Positions 56,359-64,000 of a DNA stretch of 64,000 nt are shown here, in pieces. Position numbers and translations under genes: made by a program. The DNA lies in NCBI RefSeq assembly GCF_024138715.1, contig NZ_CP092074.1:2604001-2668000 (forward strand), written 5' to 3'. The stretch comes from Emticicia sp. 21SJ11W-3 (GTDB lineage Bacteria; Bacteroidota; Bacteroidia; Cytophagales; Spirosomataceae). Position 1 is the first letter of the stretch; every line of letters starts with the position of its first letter. Under the pieces are notes generated by a model that was not told the origin of the DNA, ran no database searches, and saw only the letters and a list, made by a program, of their open reading frames with translations.

Positions 56359-57657
56359 TCAAGATTGAATAATCACTGACGGCTCACCGTACTTGAAGTG
56401 GAAACCTGCAGGATTGGTGTAACTGTCTGGTACCTGTGCATTGGCAACAGTTTCAACAAATTTCAGCTGATCTACCGGCTTCTCGAAAAGCATGATAATA
56501 TCAGACCCGCCAAAGGCAAAATACCCGAATTCTGTTCCTTTGTTTACGGTTTGTCCTGCCAGATTACTGTACATGTGCACTGAAGAAACCTGAGCCATAC
56601 CTACAGGAATAGTGGCTACGGAGCCGATGCTGGCATCGCCGGTATCAATAATCACAACGCCACGGGCCTGTGTAAATTCATAACCGTCTGTTGAACTATC
56701 AGGTGCATCAAATTGGTCGCCGGTAATCTGAACATCAAGAAATACACTTCCTGATAATGCTTCAATATATTTTACTTTACCACTTACAGGGGTATGGAAA
56801 CGGTGGTAGTCAAAGGGGCTCAGGAAGTAATGTACAAATGTGCCATTGTAAAACTGGCTGGCATATTGTTCACCATCTGGCCCTAGCAGGTCGTTTACAT
56901 TGCCTATAGTATGGGTTTGTTTCAATCTGAAAGTCGTAAGGTTACCATTAGTATCCAGCACATTACCGTTTGCATCAATCTGATAGATTGCCTTGAAGGT
57001 ACAATCAGCTGGTGATGTAACAATGGTATTGTCATTCGGATTGGCAATCGGCCTCATTGGTGAACCGTTCAGGGTATTGATGTTTAGCTGCCGATAGAAA
57101 AACGTGTTGAAAGATACCCAGTTAGGTTTGTCATTAATGTAGTCTTGTGCATTGTACATAGGGTCTGCCAAGAACGTAGCCAGCGTAGCATTAGTTAAGG
57201 ATGCAGAAGTGTTGAGGAAACTACCCCATTCATTGGCATATTTGTCTAGCCAGTCTGCAAAAGAAAAACTGTCATTGGTGTAACTCTGCAATGTCTTCTT
57301 GTTATAATCCGGAAGCGGTTGGTCAATTAGCCAGTAAAACTGACAAAGTCTGTCGAAAATCTGCTGACTATAACCTAAAGGATTTGACCAGGGGCCGTGT
57401 AGTTCAATTGATTCGCTTGGAAGCACCTGTTCAAAGTAAGTTAGGTAAGACAGATAATCATCAGAATTGGTTGGCCAGCCATTATTTTTGTATAATGTGT
57501 TTAAGGCATTAAATAAAGACGCATTTAAGCTAGCCTGTGCTGATTGCTTTGCCAAATTGAGCGATTTATTCAGCAATTTTTCAAGTTCGGTGTCGTCACT
57601 GAGTTGCTTTTGAAGTAGAGTAACAACAGGAGAGTAGTTTTGTGTTGTAATTGCCAT
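56359..57657 (-). CDS. Phosphatidylserine decarboxylase-family protein (PSDC-type, possibly soluble decarboxylase)
   Basis: A 432-residue protein starting at ATG 57655-57657. An N-terminal helical domain of about 165 residues precedes the decarboxylase core, as in the PSDC-associated subgroup. Core motifs are HYFLSPFDYHRFHTPVSGKV (D283, H285), VSSVHMYSNLAGQT (H361) and the self-cleavage site FAFGGSDIIMLFE (G384-S385), whose Ser becomes the pyruvoyl cofactor. No signal peptide or membrane helix is seen. Fungal relatives with this two-domain layout include soluble decarboxylases acting on free amino acids, so the substrate here may not be phosphatidylserine. It is the last gene of the leaderless cluster. 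Confidence 0.85.
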   Translation of the reverse strand: MAITTQNYSPVVTLLQKQLSDDTELEKLLNKSLNLAKQSAQASLNASLFNALNTLYKNNGWPTNSDDYLSYLTYFEQVLPSESIELHGPWSNPLGYSQQIFDRLCQFYWLIDQPLPDYNKKTLQSYTNDSFSFADWLDKYANEWGSFLNTSASLTNATLATFLADPMYNAQDYINDKPNWVSFNTFFYRQLNINTLNGSPMRPIANPNDNTIVTSPADCTFKAIYQIDANGNVLDTNGNLTTFRLKQTHTIGNVNDLLGPDGEQYASQFYNGTFVHYFLSPFDYHRFHTPVSGKVKYIEALSGSVFLDVQITGDQFDAPDSSTDGYEFTQARGVVIIDTGDASIGSVATIPVGMAQVSSVHMYSNLAGQTVNKGTEFGYFAFGGSDIIMLFEKPVDQLKFVETVANAQVPDSYTNPAGFHFKYGEPSVIIQS

Positions 57658-57736
57658 TGTAGTCAACAGTTTTAGTTAATGTTAATTGTATTAAAAATTC
57701 TTACGGTTAAGATTTCTCTTAAGCGCTTTGATTGTG

Positions 57737-58792
57737 TCAGCGAGTAAATCTGAATGGAATGGAGCCTACAATCATCATCTTTTTGATTGGTATTTGGAGC
57801 TGACCTTTATTTCTTGCGAATTCTACCGGTGTGCCATAATGATGTACATCTGCCAGAAACTGCGGCGCTGTTTTTCTGACGATGTCAATAAAATCTGAGG
57901 TTAGGCCCCATGTACCGGCAAAAGGAATAATATTGGCTCCATCCTGCGCCGGGGTAGTTCCTTCATAGTAGTTCCAGGTCAATTGCGTTTTAAAGCCACC
58001 AGATTCTGCCGGATATTCCACCTGAACAGTGGGTGCATAATTGTTAACCTCAATTTTAGTTTTCGGAAAAATGATGGTATTGTCCTCGTTAGGCCCTGGA
58101 ACAAAAAACTCAATATATCCACCTTTGGGAATTTTATCGCACTGAAGGCCAATGTTTAAAATACCACCTTCAGGTGGGCCATCAATTGGTGCAGTGCCTG
58201 TAAGAGTGGGTTTGGTTGCATCTACGGCAATGGTGTTTTTCCAACCGATATTAGGGTTTGAAATTATAAATTTACCCAAATCAGATACCTTTCCTATGCT
58301 TTGCAAATCGGGTGGTATGTTTTGTTGCGGGCCATTTTTTGCCCAGGCAACCAGACAATAATGGTATTTTGTTGGGGGTGTCCAGCCAAAGGGAGGAATT
58401 GTACCCTGTAAGCCCAGATTATCCGTGCTTGGCGGAGCCACAAAAGATGCCCAGTTCTGGTATTCTCCGGCATACATAAACTCCCGGTATTTCCAGTTCT
58501 GAGGCCACAGCATAACAGAACTATCTGCATAATACATATAGATAGTTGTTTTCTGCGGTACTGTCTGGGGATTGACACCACGTACATACACCCAATTGTT
58601 CATCTCAGGTGACTGTTTATAGCCAATGGGGAGTCCTTTGTTGTAATTATCTGCATTTAAGATAGTTTTGGGGTCTGCCAATGGAGTAGGACCTGAACAA
58701 ATAATATCAGGCGAATTGGTCCAACTGGTGCCTTTAGAGCCGTCAATGGTTTCGCCTACATAATCTCTGATAAAAAATCCGTCGTAACTCAT
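57737..58792 (-). CDS. Unknown 351-residue protein, paralogue B of a tandem pair
   Basis: A 351-residue protein with no signal peptide or membrane helix. The first 55 residues (from SYDGFFIRDYVGETIDG) are nearly the same as in the protein encoded at 58967-60025, and the whole protein aligns with it. Visible blocks are SPDIIC, NWVYVRGVNPQTVPQ, FGWTPP and YHYCLVAWA in the first half, and GGYIEFFVPG, FAGTWGL and DVHHYGTPVEFARN in the second half. The NWVYVRGVNP strand is reminiscent of CARDB/Ig-like domains of extracellular proteins, but this is weak. I recognise no family. It precedes the decarboxylase gene by 79 bases. Confidence 0.75.
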   Translation of the reverse strand: MSYDGFFIRDYVGETIDGSKGTSWTNSPDIICSGPTPLADPKTILNADNYNKGLPIGYKQSPEMNNWVYVRGVNPQTVPQKTTIYMYYADSSVMLWPQNWKYREFMYAGEYQNWASFVAPPSTDNLGLQGTIPPFGWTPPTKYHYCLVAWAKNGPQQNIPPDLQSIGKVSDLGKFIISNPNIGWKNTIAVDATKPTLTGTAPIDGPPEGGILNIGLQCDKIPKGGYIEFFVPGPNEDNTIIFPKTKIEVNNYAPTVQVEYPAESGGFKTQLTWNYYEGTTPAQDGANIIPFAGTWGLTSDFIDIVRKTAPQFLADVHHYGTPVEFARNKGQLQIPIKKMMIVGSIPFRFTR

Positions 58793-58906
58793 AATAAAAT
58801 TGTTTTATGTAGTATCAGTTAATAAATAAATTCACGGCAAAAGAGTAAATCACATCAAAAGAGATGGAATAAAATTTGAAACTACTGTTTACTCTTTCAA
58901 TCTTTA

Positions 58907-58950
58907 AAAACCGGTCTCTTTCATTCTGAAAATCAAAAATCCTGAGACCG
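58907..58950 (-). terminator. Hairpin between the two paralogues
   Basis: A seven-base GC-rich stem CGGTCTC (58912-58918) pairs with GAGACCG (58944-58950). On the minus strand it is followed by GGTTTTTAAAG. It could end or attenuate transcription after the upstream paralogue. The loop is 25 bases. Confidence 0.55.
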
Positions 58951-58966
58951 ATTTATTTTTGTTTTC

Positions 58967-60025
58967 CTACCTTGTCAATTTGAAAGGCACTGAGCCAATT
59001 ACCATGATCGTTCTTATTTTTGTCTCTGAATTGCGACCATTGGCTTGAAATTCTACTGGTGAGCCATAATGATGAACATCTATCAGGTGCTGGGGAGCAA
59101 TTTGGCGTACCTCATCTATAAAACTGGATGTTAAACCCCAGGTGGCCACAAAAGGTATAACGTTAGACCCTGCCGGGGCAGGCGTTGCACCCTGGTAATA
59201 TTTCCAGTTCATTTGTGTTACAAAACCACCTGGCATAGACGGATAGGTAACCTGAAATGTGGGTGCGTAGTTTGGAGAGACAATCTGTGTTTTTGGAAGA
59301 ATAATTGTATTGTCAGCATCCGGGCCAGGTACCGAGAACTCAATGTAGCCATCTTTGGGCAGTTTATCGCATTGTAAACCAATACTTAATAGCCCACCTG
59401 AAGAAGGCCCGATGATAGAAGCCACTCCCTGTATAGTAGGTACGGTTGCATCTACTTCTGTAGTATTTTTCCAACCTACATTCGGGTGTGTCAGTATAAA
59501 ATTAGCCATATCTGGCACACTGCCAATACTGCCCAGGTCTGGGGGTGTAAGTTGGTCATCACCATTATTAGCCCATGCAACCAGACAATAATGCGTGTTA
59601 TTGCGCGGGGGTGTCCAGCCAAAGGGAGAAATTGTTCCTTGTATTCCCTGATTATCGGTGGAAGCAGGCGCATTGAGTGTTACCCAGTTTTGCTGTTTGC
59701 CTCCGTATATGATACCCGTTGACATCCAGTTCTGGGGCCAAAGGACGATGGTTGTATCTACATAATACAAAAATACTGTTGAGGTTTGCGGAACTGATTT
59801 CGGGTTAACACCCCTTACATACACCCAATTGTTGGTTAAAGGTGTCTGATTGTTAAGCTGTGGCAGCCCTTTGTTATAATTATCTGCATTGGTAATAACG
59901 TTGGGGTCTGCCAGAGGCGTGGTACCCGGGCAAATAATATCGGGCGAGTTTGTCCAGCTTGTGCCTTTAGGGCCATCTATTGTTTCGCCAACATAGTCTC
60001 TGATAAAAAATCCGTCGTAGCTCAT
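58967..60025 (-). CDS. Unknown 352-residue protein, paralogue A of a tandem pair
   Basis: A 352-residue protein, the tandem paralogue of the 351-residue protein downstream. Conserved blocks are SYDGFFIRDYVGETIDG, the SPDIIC segment, WVYVRGVNP, LWPQNW, SPFGWTPP, THYCLVAWA, GYIEFSVPGPDADNTI, VATWGLTSSFIDEVR and DVHHYGSPVEFQ. The pair differs mostly in surface-like loops. There is no signal peptide, lipobox or sorting tail, so it is cytoplasmic or exported by a non-classical route. It lies 34 bases after the beta-propeller gene and is probably cotranscribed with it. Function is unknown. Confidence 0.78.
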   Translation of the reverse strand: MSYDGFFIRDYVGETIDGPKGTSWTNSPDIICPGTTPLADPNVITNADNYNKGLPQLNNQTPLTNNWVYVRGVNPKSVPQTSTVFLYYVDTTIVLWPQNWMSTGIIYGGKQQNWVTLNAPASTDNQGIQGTISPFGWTPPRNNTHYCLVAWANNGDDQLTPPDLGSIGSVPDMANFILTHPNVGWKNTTEVDATVPTIQGVASIIGPSSGGLLSIGLQCDKLPKDGYIEFSVPGPDADNTIILPKTQIVSPNYAPTFQVTYPSMPGGFVTQMNWKYYQGATPAPAGSNVIPFVATWGLTSSFIDEVRQIAPQHLIDVHHYGSPVEFQANGRNSETKIRTIMVIGSVPFKLTR

Positions 60026-60059
60026 GTTTATGTAATTTTAAGGTGATTGATTAACTTTT

Positions 60060-63000
60060 TTAGCTAATTTGATTTATTACTGCCAGGTTATTGCTATTGA
60101 ATCCTGTCAGGTAAATAGATGACCCATTTGGAAGAATGGCTATTCCGGTAGGATACTGTAGATTTTGCTGCCAGGTAAGTGTCTGGATAATACGTAAAGT
60201 GGTAGTACTGATAATTCGAACACCTGCCGTATTAGCATCTGTAACAAACAACCGGGTACTATCAGGAGAAACTACCGCCTGCTGAAAATTGGTTAGTATT
60301 GCATAAGAAGATGGCATTTGGGTTTCTATTGACGTAAGGTCGCTAATATTTACACTTGCAATAGAGGTTTTCATGTTCTGCTGCATAACCACGTATAGCT
60401 TACTGTTATCTGGCGACACAGCCATTGTCTTTGTAAGAATAGATAGGCTTATCTGGGTAGTTGATAATTGATAAACATGGTTTGAATCTTGAATCAATGT
60501 CCAGATTTTCTTGTCTAAAGAACTGAGAACAAAAGCGTGTGTGCCATCAGGTGTGTTCTGCAATAGAACACTATTTGATGTTGAAGCATTTTTAAATACA
60601 AATACATCTGTATTTACATTGTACGTCGCATTTTTTTCGTTGCAGGTAAAAGCAATAAAACTGTAATTGCCAGCTGAATCTTTAACAACTGTATAAAGAT
60701 TTTTACCATCGGCAGACATACTCAACTCAACGGGATATCTGCTTACATCACCTTCTCCGGCAGGAATAGATATCGAACCTGTTACATTGAAGGTTCCGGT
60801 TTCCATGATTTTTATTTCGGTACTTGACTTCTCTATTACATACATCAGGCCAACTGAAGCAACCGGAGAAACCACACAATCAACGATTGAGTCGTCTTCA
60901 AGGCGTGTAGATATTGCGCCTGAGGCGGTTTCATAAATATACAGGCCCTTTGTAAAATCAGGTTTGTTGCTAATAAAAAGCACATTATGCCATGCTACCA
61001 GTTTTTTGCCATCGGCGGTGGCTATTACATTGGTTGGTTGTTTACCTATATCTACCGGAGTGCTACGTAATTGATAATTTATCAGATTAAATGTAGTAAC
61101 ACTTTTATCAGAGTTGGCAATGTAGGCCGCTGTGTTGTCATAAGCCATTGAAATAGCAAGCGGATTAGGACCTGTCTTGATAGACGCATCAATTACGCTG
61201 CAACTTCCGGTTCCTTTGCTGCAACTGATAAGCGAGGCATTGCCAGATGAATAATTTATAACAAAGGCATAGGCTCTGTCTGTTGTAGTTACAATCCGTA
61301 TTGGAGAGTTGTTTACAGATAGAGACTGTCTGGGCGAGGTGCCGTCGTCATCATAATCAACAACCATTACCTGATTGGTAGCATAGCAGGCAACAAGCAG
61401 AGTTTTGCCGTTTTCGTCGGCCACTGCCACATCAACCGGGTTCTGCGGCAGGTTGCTAATGCTCCGGCTATACATAAATGCATCATTTACCGAGCTATAA
61501 GCCATTACACAAATACTGTTGTCGCCTTTAATAGCCACATACACGTTTGTGCCTGAAGGGTCTACTGCAATACCCATCGGTGACTGATAAGTTTGAATGG
61601 TCTGTTTTATTGAGAACTGGTCGGCGCCTTTGTTTTCAATCACTATAAAATTGCCTTTACCTTCAAGATCTGTTGTTACAAAGATGTATTTGTCGTCGCC
61701 AGATATGGCAATGCGTGCCGGGGTTCCGGCTATTTTGATAGATGACAACTTTGAAAACGAGTAATTTCCGGTTGATGGGTCTCTCAATATTTTAATAATG
61801 TTTACAGCACCAGCCTTGTTATTCAATACAAAGAGATAAGAACCACTGTGAGCGAAAACCTGATCAATGGGGGTTCCATCAGTGCTTAATGCGATTGCAT
61901 TCTCAGTATAATCGAGAGAATTAAGAAAATGAACTTTTTTATTGTCAATGTCTAATGCAGCAAGAAACTCAGCAGAAGGTGAAGCGACCACAGAGCTGGA
62001 TTTGAATGACAGCGAATCAGACTGCGGGTTTACTTTGAATGACTGAATAAGCACATTTCTTAACAAAGTATAGGGGTTTTCTTCATTCTGAGGAATCAAC
62101 GACCACATACCAGGTGTGGTTATACTTTTGATTTGCGTACTGGTTTTAGGCACACTCTCTTTGCTGCCAGTTACGTCATTTACCAGCAGTACCGAATCAT
62201 TGGTATCTACGTCCCAAAAAAACTTGGCGTCATGGGGGTAATTGTTGTAATAGATATTTTTGGGAGTAACTTTAAACGAGTTAATGACAGGCAGCACATC
62301 GGCAGTGGTGGTTTTTGTTGCCTGATTGGCCGTAGTGGCCGCACCATTAGCTACCAAGGTAATGACGGTAGACTTTTTGAGGGTTGCCTTAAAACTGTTT
62401 TTATTGGTTACATCCTGATAAAACGGCATCAGCATTAAAGACTGGTAATCTTTTGCATTCCACGAAATAGTAACACTGGCTTCTCCGTTTTTGATAACTG
62501 ACGGATTGGGTGTTATTGTCAGATTATTAATGACCACATGAGGTATTTTGGTGAGTGTCATGTAGTAAGAGCCATCGTTAAAACCAGGTACATTCTGATA
62601 TTGTACATACATGAGCGTTGAACCCGGTTGAAAACTGGTCATAATTTCAGTTATATAAAAAGAAACTATGGCTCCGGCTCCTGTACCTACAATTTCAGCG
62701 TTTACTGGTGGCTGCAAAATCCAGCATGGGTTCTGGGCATCCGTATTGGGTGTTACGCTCCAGCCTGAGGCATTTTCTCCCTGGGCAACTACAATGTTAT
62801 CGCGCGCCGATTGGGGCGTTGTCAGGGCGCCATAGCCTGGTGCCGATGGTGCATATACGAAACTAACCGTAAAAGTAGTTTTTGGCCCTGCTTTAACCAC
62901 TACCGGATTAGACCCCGGCTTAAAGGCAAATGTAATGCTGTTATCTACCTGCGGATAATCCCGAACTGTATTGACTATTATGGGAGGGGTAGTGAGTATG

Positions 63001-63533
63001 CAATCAATGGCATTGTGCAAGTCTTTTTTGTCTTCAGGGGCGGCCTGCAAAAGCACTTTAAAGAAAGAAAGCTGCGCCAAATTGCCAATCGTAATAGGGC
63101 TGACCCTGTAATATGAAACAGATAAGTTAACGTTGGGCGATGAGGGCGGTGTTGGCAAAACCAGATTTTCGATTTTGATTTCTACCGTATCTGAACCCTG
63201 ATTCAGGGTAATATCTTTGGTTGGTACCAGACCAATAATGCTGTTCGGATAAAGGGCGTAGTCCCAATCGGTAGAAGAACAAACAATTTTGCTAAAATCG
63301 GCCTCAGGAATCTGCAAAGTGCTTAGGTCCAGATACAATATAGAACCTGTGGCCGTTGGAGCGTCTGTAGGCGGTACTAACTGACCCGAACTGAAAACGG
63401 TGTTATCTTTATTGGTTTTAACTCTGAAAACCAACTTGTTTACTGTGGGGTCTGTAGTTACATAAATGGTGTTATCCTGCCCCGGATTACTTAGGGAGAA
63501 AGACAACTGCGGAAATGTCTGAGTGTCTTGCAT
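60060..63533 (-). CDS. Large protein with a beta-rich N-terminus and YncE-like beta-propeller repeats
   Basis: A 1157-residue protein without a signal peptide. Residues 1-190 are beta-rich. About 195-330 is a module ending in YVQYQNVPGFNDG, shared with the partial protein upstream. About 335-450 looks Ig-like (NNLTITPNPSVIKNGEASVT). From about 530 to the end, repeated strands such as ARIAISGDDKYIFVTTD, GIAVDPSGTNVYVAIKGD and NVIATADGKKLVAWHN form the YncE/lactonase-like seven-bladed beta-propeller pattern, possibly two propellers. The role may be scaffolding or ligand binding. It is 65 bases after the partial gene and 34 bases before paralogue A. Function is unknown. Confidence 0.78.
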   Translation of the reverse strand: MQDTQTFPQLSFSLSNPGQDNTIYVTTDPTVNKLVFRVKTNKDNTVFSSGQLVPPTDAPTATGSILYLDLSTLQIPEADFSKIVCSSTDWDYALYPNSIIGLVPTKDITLNQGSDTVEIKIENLVLPTPPSSPNVNLSVSYYRVSPITIGNLAQLSFFKVLLQAAPEDKKDLHNAIDCILTTPPIIVNTVRDYPQVDNSITFAFKPGSNPVVVKAGPKTTFTVSFVYAPSAPGYGALTTPQSARDNIVVAQGENASGWSVTPNTDAQNPCWILQPPVNAEIVGTGAGAIVSFYITEIMTSFQPGSTLMYVQYQNVPGFNDGSYYMTLTKIPHVVINNLTITPNPSVIKNGEASVTISWNAKDYQSLMLMPFYQDVTNKNSFKATLKKSTVITLVANGAATTANQATKTTTADVLPVINSFKVTPKNIYYNNYPHDAKFFWDVDTNDSVLLVNDVTGSKESVPKTSTQIKSITTPGMWSLIPQNEENPYTLLRNVLIQSFKVNPQSDSLSFKSSSVVASPSAEFLAALDIDNKKVHFLNSLDYTENAIALSTDGTPIDQVFAHSGSYLFVLNNKAGAVNIIKILRDPSTGNYSFSKLSSIKIAGTPARIAISGDDKYIFVTTDLEGKGNFIVIENKGADQFSIKQTIQTYQSPMGIAVDPSGTNVYVAIKGDNSICVMAYSSVNDAFMYSRSISNLPQNPVDVAVADENGKTLLVACYATNQVMVVDYDDDGTSPRQSLSVNNSPIRIVTTTDRAYAFVINYSSGNASLISCSKGTGSCSVIDASIKTGPNPLAISMAYDNTAAYIANSDKSVTTFNLINYQLRSTPVDIGKQPTNVIATADGKKLVAWHNVLFISNKPDFTKGLYIYETASGAISTRLEDDSIVDCVVSPVASVGLMYVIEKSSTEIKIMETGTFNVTGSISIPAGEGDVSRYPVELSMSADGKNLYTVVKDSAGNYSFIAFTCNEKNATYNVNTDVFVFKNASTSNSVLLQNTPDGTHAFVLSSLDKKIWTLIQDSNHVYQLSTTQISLSILTKTMAVSPDNSKLYVVMQQNMKTSIASVNISDLTSIETQMPSSYAILTNFQQAVVSPDSTRLFVTDANTAGVRIISTTTLRIIQTLTWQQNLQYPTGIAILPNGSSIYLTGFNSNNLAVINQIS

Positions 63534-63598
63534 AGTTGTTTTGTTTTAAATTGTTAATTGAAAGAATAGTGATAAATAATAGATTTCTTTTGCTAAGC

Positions 63599-64000
63599 TC
63601 AGCTAAGTGTAATTAGCACTGCATCCAGGCCATCGTTTACACCGGTAACGTTCAGGTACTCAAAGTACATTTGTACCTGACCTGTCTGATTGGTGGTTTT
63701 AACATTGCTGAGTGTTATTTTAAATGCTTCTTTAGGGTTTAAAACCAGCTCTACTGTTGGGTTGGCCACCCAGAAATTTCCGTAACGTGTGTCGTTCAGA
63801 AGCCGGAATGACCAGCCCTCAGCTGAAAACTGTATATCCGGAACATCTTTCTGGCTAACGAGCTGGCCCAAATGTATGTAAATGGCAGATGCTACATTTT
63901 TTGGTAAAGACGCAGGTTTAAAAATAATTTCGAGGGGTTTCCGGTTACTGACAGCCATGTAAAACGTATTAACGGCATTGGCAATGCCCAAAGGCTGGCC
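63599..64000 (-). CDS. Partial protein sharing a module with the beta-propeller protein
   Basis: The minus-strand frame is open to the right edge (133 residues visible, no start), so the N-terminus lies outside the window. The C-terminal part (GWSFRLLNDTRYGNFWVANP, then VQMYFEYLNVTGVNDG) resembles residues 255-322 of the 1157-residue protein (GWSVTPN, YVQYQNVPGFNDG). The motif YxxYxNVxGxNDG is common to both. No transmembrane helix or known domain is seen. It is probably the first visible gene of the cluster's operon. Function is unknown. Confidence 0.65.
   Translation of the reverse strand, partial: GQPLGIANAVNTFYMAVSNRKPLEIIFKPASLPKNVASAIYIHLGQLVSQKDVPDIQFSAEGWSFRLLNDTRYGNFWVANPTVELVLNPKEAFKITLSNVKTTNQTGQVQMYFEYLNVTGVNDGLDAVLITLS

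Follow-up and report, generated by a model that had tools for sequence, protein, structure and literature searches.

Polymorphic toxin systems combine a constant carrier with enzymes that are swapped by recombination (nuclease, hydrolase and peptidase activities among them), and an adjacent immunity gene is called a key feature (PMC3482391). The umbrella (Umb) particles of Streptomyces are multi-protein assemblies with distinct toxin domains and a set of lectins, many of them on beta-propeller folds, and one strain holds several such particles (PMC11062931, PMC13274773). Their toxin domain lies within UmbC, and genes of immunity families are found downstream of two of the three UmbC (PMC11062931). 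The TANFOR toxins of Bacteroidetes are large carriers whose toxin is sometimes encoded in an adjacent gene; about 87% are predicted to bear a Sec leader, and substrates of the type IX secretion system abound in their neighbourhoods (PMC7073777). Here we analyse a stretch of 64,000 nucleotides (henceforth the window), i.e., positions 2604001-2668000 of G000:C1, the single contig of the 5.18-Mb genome of Emticicia sp. 21SJ11W-3 (G000). At its right edge lies the 3' part of a gene cluster with three core proteins (DUF6603, U741 and U1359), and we lean towards reading this cluster as a modular system with an exchangeable enzyme and exchangeable arms, i.e., an effector-carrying particle.

The cluster comprises eight minus-strand genes, 19.5 kb in all, of which the window holds the 3' part only; the DNA to the right of the window was fetched. 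In the order of transcription, the genes encode a metallo-beta-lactamase (MBL)-fold protein (524 residues), DUF6603 (1467), U741, U1359, a propeller protein (1157), the proteins T352 and T351, and a member of the phosphatidylserine decarboxylase (PSD) family (435), with intergenic gaps of 15, 2, -20, 65, 34, 174 and 70 bases. Genes were called as the longest open reading frame (ORF) with table 11 starts, a procedure which fails in GC-rich loci. The original prediction, made from the window alone, had described five adjacent minus-strand genes with gaps of 34-174 bases. These ORFs were borne out, the fifth being cut at the edge, and the rightward extension that the prediction had proposed as a check completed this fifth gene to 1359 residues and added three further genes.

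DUF6603 was matched by its profile (PF20248) with 467 bits against a cut-off of 27 (E 8.8e-140). Its distribution is patchy: of 395 Bacteroidota genomes sampled, 16 have a match that exceeds the cut-off, Emticicia among them. These 16 genomes contain 17 DUF6603 loci (two of them in G065): 10 carry DUF6603 with U741 and U1359, and the remaining 7 carry a second set, DUF6603-B5-B4-B3. Using hhalign, we found that B5 and U741 share an N-terminal domain (95.8%, E 6.6e-9) and found no relative of U1359 among the other cluster families. A pattern scan with one genome per species returned 240 relatives of the DUF6603-U741-U1359 kind, 80 of which were kept for locus counts. By record title, these 80 loci belong to Bacteroidota, Actinomycetota, Pseudomonadota, cyanobacteria, Chloroflexi, Acidobacteria, Bacillota, Verrucomicrobia, KSB1 and others; Paenibacillus is also among the groups with relatives. 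Linkage within the core was counted on stop-to-stop frames, with profiles built from 10 loci, three of which (L112, L115 and L128) recur among the 80. U741 followed DUF6603 on the same strand in 74 of the 76 loci with more than 1.5 kb of room, and lay within 700 bases of the last matched DUF6603 position in 68 loci. Of 51 full-length loci, 48 have U1359 on the DUF6603 strand, 28 of them downstream and 20 upstream, and the opposite strand gave no core match in any of the 80. Judged by this linkage, DUF6603, U741 and U1359 are a conserved three-gene core across many phyla.

Alignments of the core families used 44 of 51 rows for U741, 44 of 49 for U1359 and 52 of 64 for DUF6603. In six loci (L065, L066, L086, L110, L119 and L128) two genes, of about 450-520 and 285-318 residues, take the place of U741, which thus appears to have two separable parts. 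Eight plasmid records (Streptomyces, Embleya and Paenibacillus) hold a U741 relative, annotated as hypothetical in three of them and unannotated in five; in two plasmid records U741 is labelled hypothetical and DUF6603, where named, is given by number only. On a linear plasmid of Streptomyces sp. NBC_01276, a DUF6603 cluster (L173:11275-22258) has transposase genes on both sides and lies some kilobases from genes annotated as CATRA conflict and CHAT. A literature search without bioRxiv and with few subscription journals found no paper naming DUF6603 or PF20248, and wider terms led to the umbrella, TANFOR and polymorphic-toxin papers but to nothing on the system.

In contrast to the constant core, the gene directly upstream of DUF6603 (hereafter the cargo slot) varies between loci, with MBL, DUF4135, nuclease, lipase and protease types. 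We scanned 51 of 58 slot proteins (seven short or noisy ORFs were dropped) and found the Pfam names Lactamase_B in 12, DUF4135 in 4, Exo_endo_phos in 3 and Lipase_3 in 2, together with single matches to S8, Trypsin, Peptidase_M91 ('Effector protein'), T6SS_HCP and HNH, the last at 19.8 bits and so below its cut-off of 21.4. We take the DUF4135 proteins to be LanM-type. Within the Bacteroidota sample, the slot held MBL proteins in G166 and G065, DUF4135 in G157, GIY-YIG (below cut-off) in G039 and, in G048, a protein with no match over cut-off; in the second kind of cluster, a subtilase was found in G033 and relatives of it in G211 and G371. A subtilase-type gene (one of them scanned) precedes DUF6603 in 3 of the 7 loci of that second kind (L036-L043, L046-L051). 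At L136:2137-2628, in Hydrogenophaga, an Hcp-family gene (PF05638) occupies the slot before a DUF6603 frame of 3593 residues.

Hydrolases of the MBL fold carry an HxDxDH motif and later Asp and His ligands. The corresponding Emticicia protein shows HWDWDH290, TGD387 and HHG410; it had no Pfam match of its own, and two proteins in the same slot elsewhere match PF00753. Its best full-length matches come from Kangiella, Ancylobacter and Pannonibacter (28%). The nearest relatives of the Emticicia DUF6603 come from four Chitinophaga loci, one of them in Chitinophaga barathri, with 63-65% identity in the domain. The C. barathri slot holds an MBL gene start that aligns over 134 residues at 41% identity, and the other three carry DUF4135 proteins. 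In C. barathri (L058:6132-7739) only the first 142 residues of this MBL-type cargo were called before DUF6603, and the gene looks interrupted or misassembled.

We assigned cargo classes to 42 loci from Pfam matches, motifs and BLAST groups; 41 of them entered the tree and 40 the N-terminus test. Labels without Pfam support of their own are six 'HNH-like' (two were scanned, with no match), the endonuclease/exonuclease/phosphatase label of L088 (no match), the MBL labels of L089 and L092, and the L078/L093 group. A tree of 76 DUF6603 domains requires 2 changes of gene order (mean of shuffles 21.0, with 0 of 500 as low) and 19 of cargo class, the latter with 41 labels. Without the doubtful L088 label, 18 changes are needed for 40 labels, the minimum for ten classes being 9 and the shuffled value 20.9 (1 of 100 as low). 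Cargo class is nearly random on the DUF6603 tree. Two Microcystis loci (L076 and L090) that are 86% identical in the domain carry as cargo an MBL protein and an unrelated large protein. The span covering the cargo and the N-terminal third of DUF6603 (5982-9256 in L076, 4129-9258 in L090) showed no DNA similarity at E 1e-10, whereas DNA pieces in the flanks on both sides match at 75-97%. A like replacement was found between L079 and L083, where flanking pieces match at 78-91% on both sides.

The start of DUF6603 follows the cargo. Across 40 loci (780 pairs), grouped into bands of core identity, we asked whether the first 220 DUF6603 residues are more alike when two loci have the same cargo than when their cargo differs. 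Going up the bands, N-termini were similar in 1/9, 11/80 and 11/47 same-cargo pairs against 1/27, 13/275 and 13/146 different-cargo pairs in the three lowest bands, and in 17/33, 4/8 and 7/9 against 4/124, 2/16 and 0/6 in the three highest. The same-cargo excess was 28.6, compared to a null value of 0.1 (standard deviation 4.5), and none of 2000 label shuffles was as high, a count which is not an exact probability as the pairs share members and history. Without the doubtful label the excess was 27.6 (0/2000), and among pairs outside MBL the proportions were 12/29 and 3/181. Two control segments gave no excess, namely the 220 residues before the domain (587 of 1000 shuffles as high) and the last 150 residues (432 of 1000). 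The N-terminal ~220 residues of DUF6603 are swapped along with the cargo, a co-exchange that makes this end most likely the cargo dock. A candidate fusion of cargo and DUF6603 at L091 was rejected, as the long N-terminus has no similarity to cargo and was apparently translated from a wrong frame of GC-rich DNA.

The proteins that accompany the core are variable too. Among 51 of 52 accessory proteins scanned (L062 was dropped), we found LamG in 17, Peptidase_S74 in 8, a lactonase propeller in 7, kelch in 6 and phage tail collar in 3, with single occurrences of PLAT, B_lectin, Gp10_C and trans-sialidase C. In Emticicia, the propeller protein holds two copies of a beta module, and a third lies at the end of U1359. 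An iterated profile search for this module, stopped after six rounds and not fully converged, found it in 74 of 1457 proteins from all loci (70 of 1391 distinct, the set containing some duplicates); apart from U1359 proteins, its carriers are accessory proteins of these clusters, some of them so placed by position. T351 relatives were present in 12 of 20 genomes searched; judged by position, all 14 listed matches lie at the cluster. C. barathri encodes the propeller and T351 as one polypeptide. Given the shared module and this fusion, it is a fair inference that U1359, the propeller protein and T351 touch.

Much of what the original prediction had said about these proteins withstood comparison. 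It had called the genes partly duplicated, and the twins T352 and T351 are 65% identical over 352 residues (neither has a Pfam or NCBIfam match over cut-off, and T351 has no PHROG or PADLOC match). Its beta-propeller giant matches PF10282 (E 9.2e-13), with lactonase and YncE-type NCBIfam models matching below their cut-offs, and its module-sharing partner is U1359, whose C-terminus aligns with the propeller protein at 32% identity over 69 residues (E 2.9e-7, composition correction off). The proposal that the adjacent genes form a unit agrees with the neighbourhood comparison, in which the U1359, propeller and T351 types co-occur in other genomes. Finally, the prediction had seen no signal peptide or lipobox. 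By 11-residue hydropathy and inspection, no Sec leader or lipobox is visible in the eight cluster proteins: the four complete window proteins peak at 0.18-0.78 within their first 45 residues, compared to 1.97-3.06 (first 60 residues) for three neighbours in the window that were taken to bear leaders. The one doubtful case is U1359, with a value of 2.54 in a short stretch at residue 25, which we read as a buried strand.

Structure models give a tentative picture of the core. A U741 relative was modelled with a predicted local distance difference test (pLDDT) score of 82. For a DUF6603 relative, the 1200 residues modelled (pLDDT 81, predicted template modelling score 0.56) consist mostly of long antiparallel strands, and its N-terminus shows repeats of 5-6 long amphipathic strands and a helix. 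The strands alternate in hydropathy (2.77 compared to 1.52 after shuffling, 0/500). In repeating-beta-groove proteins (VPS13/TamB-like), repeats of about five beta strands and a loop form a hydrophobic groove; the repeats of the model may be of this kind, but its Foldseek matches have template modelling (TM) scores of about 0.1. A search of a viral fold library with DUF6603 returned six matches at E <=0.001, two of them named tail fibre, with TM scores of 0.05-0.11 that are too weak to use. The model fits a groove, barrel or belt with a hydrophobic face.

How does the cluster compare with the systems described above? By analogy, the umbrella particle is its nearest working parallel, made of other proteins. 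As far as genes go, both are multi-protein and include lectin or propeller proteins, and both can occur more than once per host: one Balneolaceae chromosome has two clusters (L112 and L115) with different cargo (an HNH-like tail, recognised by eye, and MBL). Unlike in the umbrella particles, the enzyme is here a separate gene, no immunity gene was recognised, and no shared family was noticed in Pfam scans. The parts of an umbrella particle are the trypsin-lectin UmbA, UmbB, and UmbC with its ALF repeats; the eight proteins gave no trypsin or umbrella-like Pfam match, with no search aimed at UmbB or ALF repeats. With polymorphic toxins, the cluster shares exchangeable enzymes that look toxin-like, beside a constant carrier. 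It differs in that the cargo is a separate upstream gene, in that the N-terminal and not the C-terminal end is exchanged, and in that the MBL gene of this genome has no recognised immunity gene separating it from its neighbours. Since the enzyme is unfused and no immunity gene was recognised beside it, the cluster is, on this comparison, not a polymorphic toxin system in the strict sense. TANFOR toxins resemble it as large Bacteroidota carriers with the toxin in some cases in an adjacent gene, but lack of a visible Sec leader sets the Emticicia cluster apart, and no TANFOR match turned up in its Pfam and NCBIfam scans. We also considered a defence system: the PADLOC scan of the cluster gave a single match, of DUF6603 to an orphan methyltransferase (E 0.0023), which was taken as chance, and this identity was rejected.

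The original prediction had a complete pyruvoyl-type decarboxylase work with ring- or scaffold-like beta proteins in a metabolic or assembly system. The enzyme itself is well supported as a member of its family: it matches PF02666 with 126 bits against a cut-off of 22 (E 1.9e-36) and keeps D221 and H288, both invariant in a six-row alignment with five relatives, but it falls below equivalog cut-offs (72.8 bits against 111.75 for TIGR00163). GGS 386-388 is common to three two-domain relatives, with GS one column earlier in two short PSDs, and its serine is likely the cleavage serine. The gene also lies 70 bases from T351 on the same strand. Nevertheless, a PSD profile that finds the Emticicia protein at 3e-163 had no match in the 80 related loci, up to 10 kb each side of the DUF6603 match. 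PSD-family genes occur in 18 of 19 cluster-bearing genomes, with all 19 matches away from the cluster by position, and of 246 other genomes in the class, 2 hold relatives of the two-domain protein (E 1e-40). Two Chitinophaga loci have both genes called, and there T351 is followed on the same strand by a 237-residue protein that is not a PSD. The enzyme that is swapped between loci lies at the opposite end of the cluster, beside DUF6603. The rarity of the gene, its absence from these loci and the Chitinophaga gene order led us to reject the decarboxylase as the centre, and a metabolic system built around it is hardly credible; what survives of the prediction is a leaderless, beta-rich, module-sharing, assembly-like unit. 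The PSD looks intact and may be a passenger or a second, lipid-acting cargo, the latter being no more than thinkable, given that two class-3 lipases fill the cargo slot elsewhere. A second two-domain PSD-family gene (445 residues; L005:9063-10400, i.e., G000:C1 712063-713400) lies far from the cluster, adjoining a 554-residue gene, presumably for a dipeptidase, and near two 128-residue repeat proteins.

Scarcely more probable is that the cluster is a remnant of a decayed prophage or contractile injection system. Like type VI secretion systems (T6SS), extracellular contractile injection systems and R-type tailocins, these loci combine tail-fibre-like domains (Peptidase_S74, Collar and Gp10_C in relatives) with variable effectors, and Hcp occupies one cargo slot. 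Among 34 cluster genomes, 16 had a sheath match (11 over cut-off) but only 2 had VipB, so that among the tested genomes the core nearly always does without a T6SS, and in at least half of them without sheaths. The Emticicia genome has no sheath or VipB match, a search of 50,697 phage records yielded no U741 relative and one of IMG/VR no DUF6603 relative (one pattern tried), and U1359, U741 and DUF6603 had no PHROG match; a contractile system or prophage in this genome was rejected on these grounds. A better case can be made, though we still judge it unlikely, for an extracellular or surface complex for scavenging, whose lectin arms would grip particles or debris while an exchangeable hydrolase digests DNA, lipid or protein for food. 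Most Pfam-named cargo proteins are hydrolases, the arms include LamG, propeller and kelch domains, and the hosts include Chitinophaga, Herpetosiphon and cyanobacteria. However, such a complex sits poorly with the lack of a visible Sec leader in this cluster, DUF4135 and Peptidase_M91 proteins are not usual feeding enzymes, and tail-spike and tail-collar domains together with frequent swapping point to conflict. Somewhat less likely again is an intracellular compartment or scaffold, in which DUF6603, U741 and U1359 would form a shell or sheet that loads one enzyme via the DUF6603 N-terminus. Leaderless proteins, a single cargo slot, a cargo-specific N-terminus and a large beta-sheet core would all suit it, but it has no evident need for lectin, tail-spike or tail-collar arms, and the cargo set forms no pathway.

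We prefer the effector-carrying particle, as a core that stays constant, a single enzyme that is swapped along with its dock, and exchangeable arms are the signature of a carrier with variable payload and target. Several observations weigh against it. No protein has been observed outside a cell, and delivery, target and toxicity are inferred. The Emticicia genome has no PF05943/PF04984 sheath or VipB match, and no secretion signal was seen. The U741 model had no solved fold match at E 0.001, and the Foldseek matches of DUF6603 (LptD, pilus ushers and ApoB) are weak, at the TM score given above. About half of the 51 slot proteins lack a Pfam enzyme match, three of them carry the accessory module, and some cargo labels rest on BLAST groups or motifs; the shared membership of the pairs in the N-terminus test also belongs here. 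The module was found in 6 U1359 proteins only (those of Emticicia, of four Chitinophaga and of Actinomadura). One subfamily, with very long DUF6603, lacks a clear cargo gene; very long or similarly unusual N-termini without one were seen in L119, L128, L132, L113, L121, L102 and L117. Moreover, 10 of 22 loci of the second gene order have no room for a gene of 60 residues on either side of the cargo. A missing immunity gene fits action on unlike cells, but it removes a hallmark of antibacterial toxins.

The coordinates of the cluster are collected in the table below. Upstream of it lie a divergent 91-residue gene, with no identity assigned, and a 710-residue gene that we take to be pnp; downstream, the next gene is on the opposite strand. 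A promoter and terminator scan of the region gave a yield near chance level, with no minus-strand terminator-like site in the gaps of 70, 174, 34 and 65 bases. GC content is 42-47% in the cluster genes and 40% in the window, a difference too small for an argument.

Table. Features of the cluster (window positions unless a contig is named)
Feature	Position	Strand	Remarks
PSD-family two-domain pyruvoyl-type decarboxylase, 435 residues, last cluster gene	56359..57666	-	PF02666; D221, H288, GGS 386-388
T351, beta-rich, 351 residues, without assigned fold	57737..58792	-	relatives at cluster elsewhere
T352, 352 residues, tandem paralogue of T351	58967..60025	-	65% identity
Putative accessory arm, 1157 residues: shared beta module, then YncE/lactonase-type propeller	60060..63533	-	module residues 84-148, 221-333
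U1359 3' end, third core protein, cut by window edge	63599..64000	-	shared module residues 1271-1357
Rest of U1359, U741, DUF6603 and MBL-fold protein, right of window	G000:C1 2667599-2679880 (including U1359 3' end)	-	

On the particle reading, the proteins would assemble in the cytoplasm into a particle that would leave the cell by lysis or another, unspecified route. The arms (in this genome the 1157-residue propeller protein with T352 and T351) would attach to sugars or receptors of a target cell, and DUF6603, with its long amphipathic beta sheets, would keep hold of the enzyme and aid its passage to or across the target membrane. Within the literature search described above, no known system tested takes the cluster as a member. 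More speculatively, and as a possibility that we hold to be short of probable, DUF6603-U741-U1359 could be the body of an unrecognised class of self-assembling effector particles, present in many phyla and without contractile parts or secretion signals. In such particles, lectin or phage-tail-type arms would pick the target, the N-terminal dock of DUF6603 would hold one enzyme, amphipathic sheets would form its membrane path, and dock and enzyme would be swapped as a cassette. If this is true, one more kind of effector carrier would be added to the few known, a set of orphan enzymes would be explained as cargo, and a testable rule would follow, i.e., that the N-terminus of DUF6603 predicts the enzyme.

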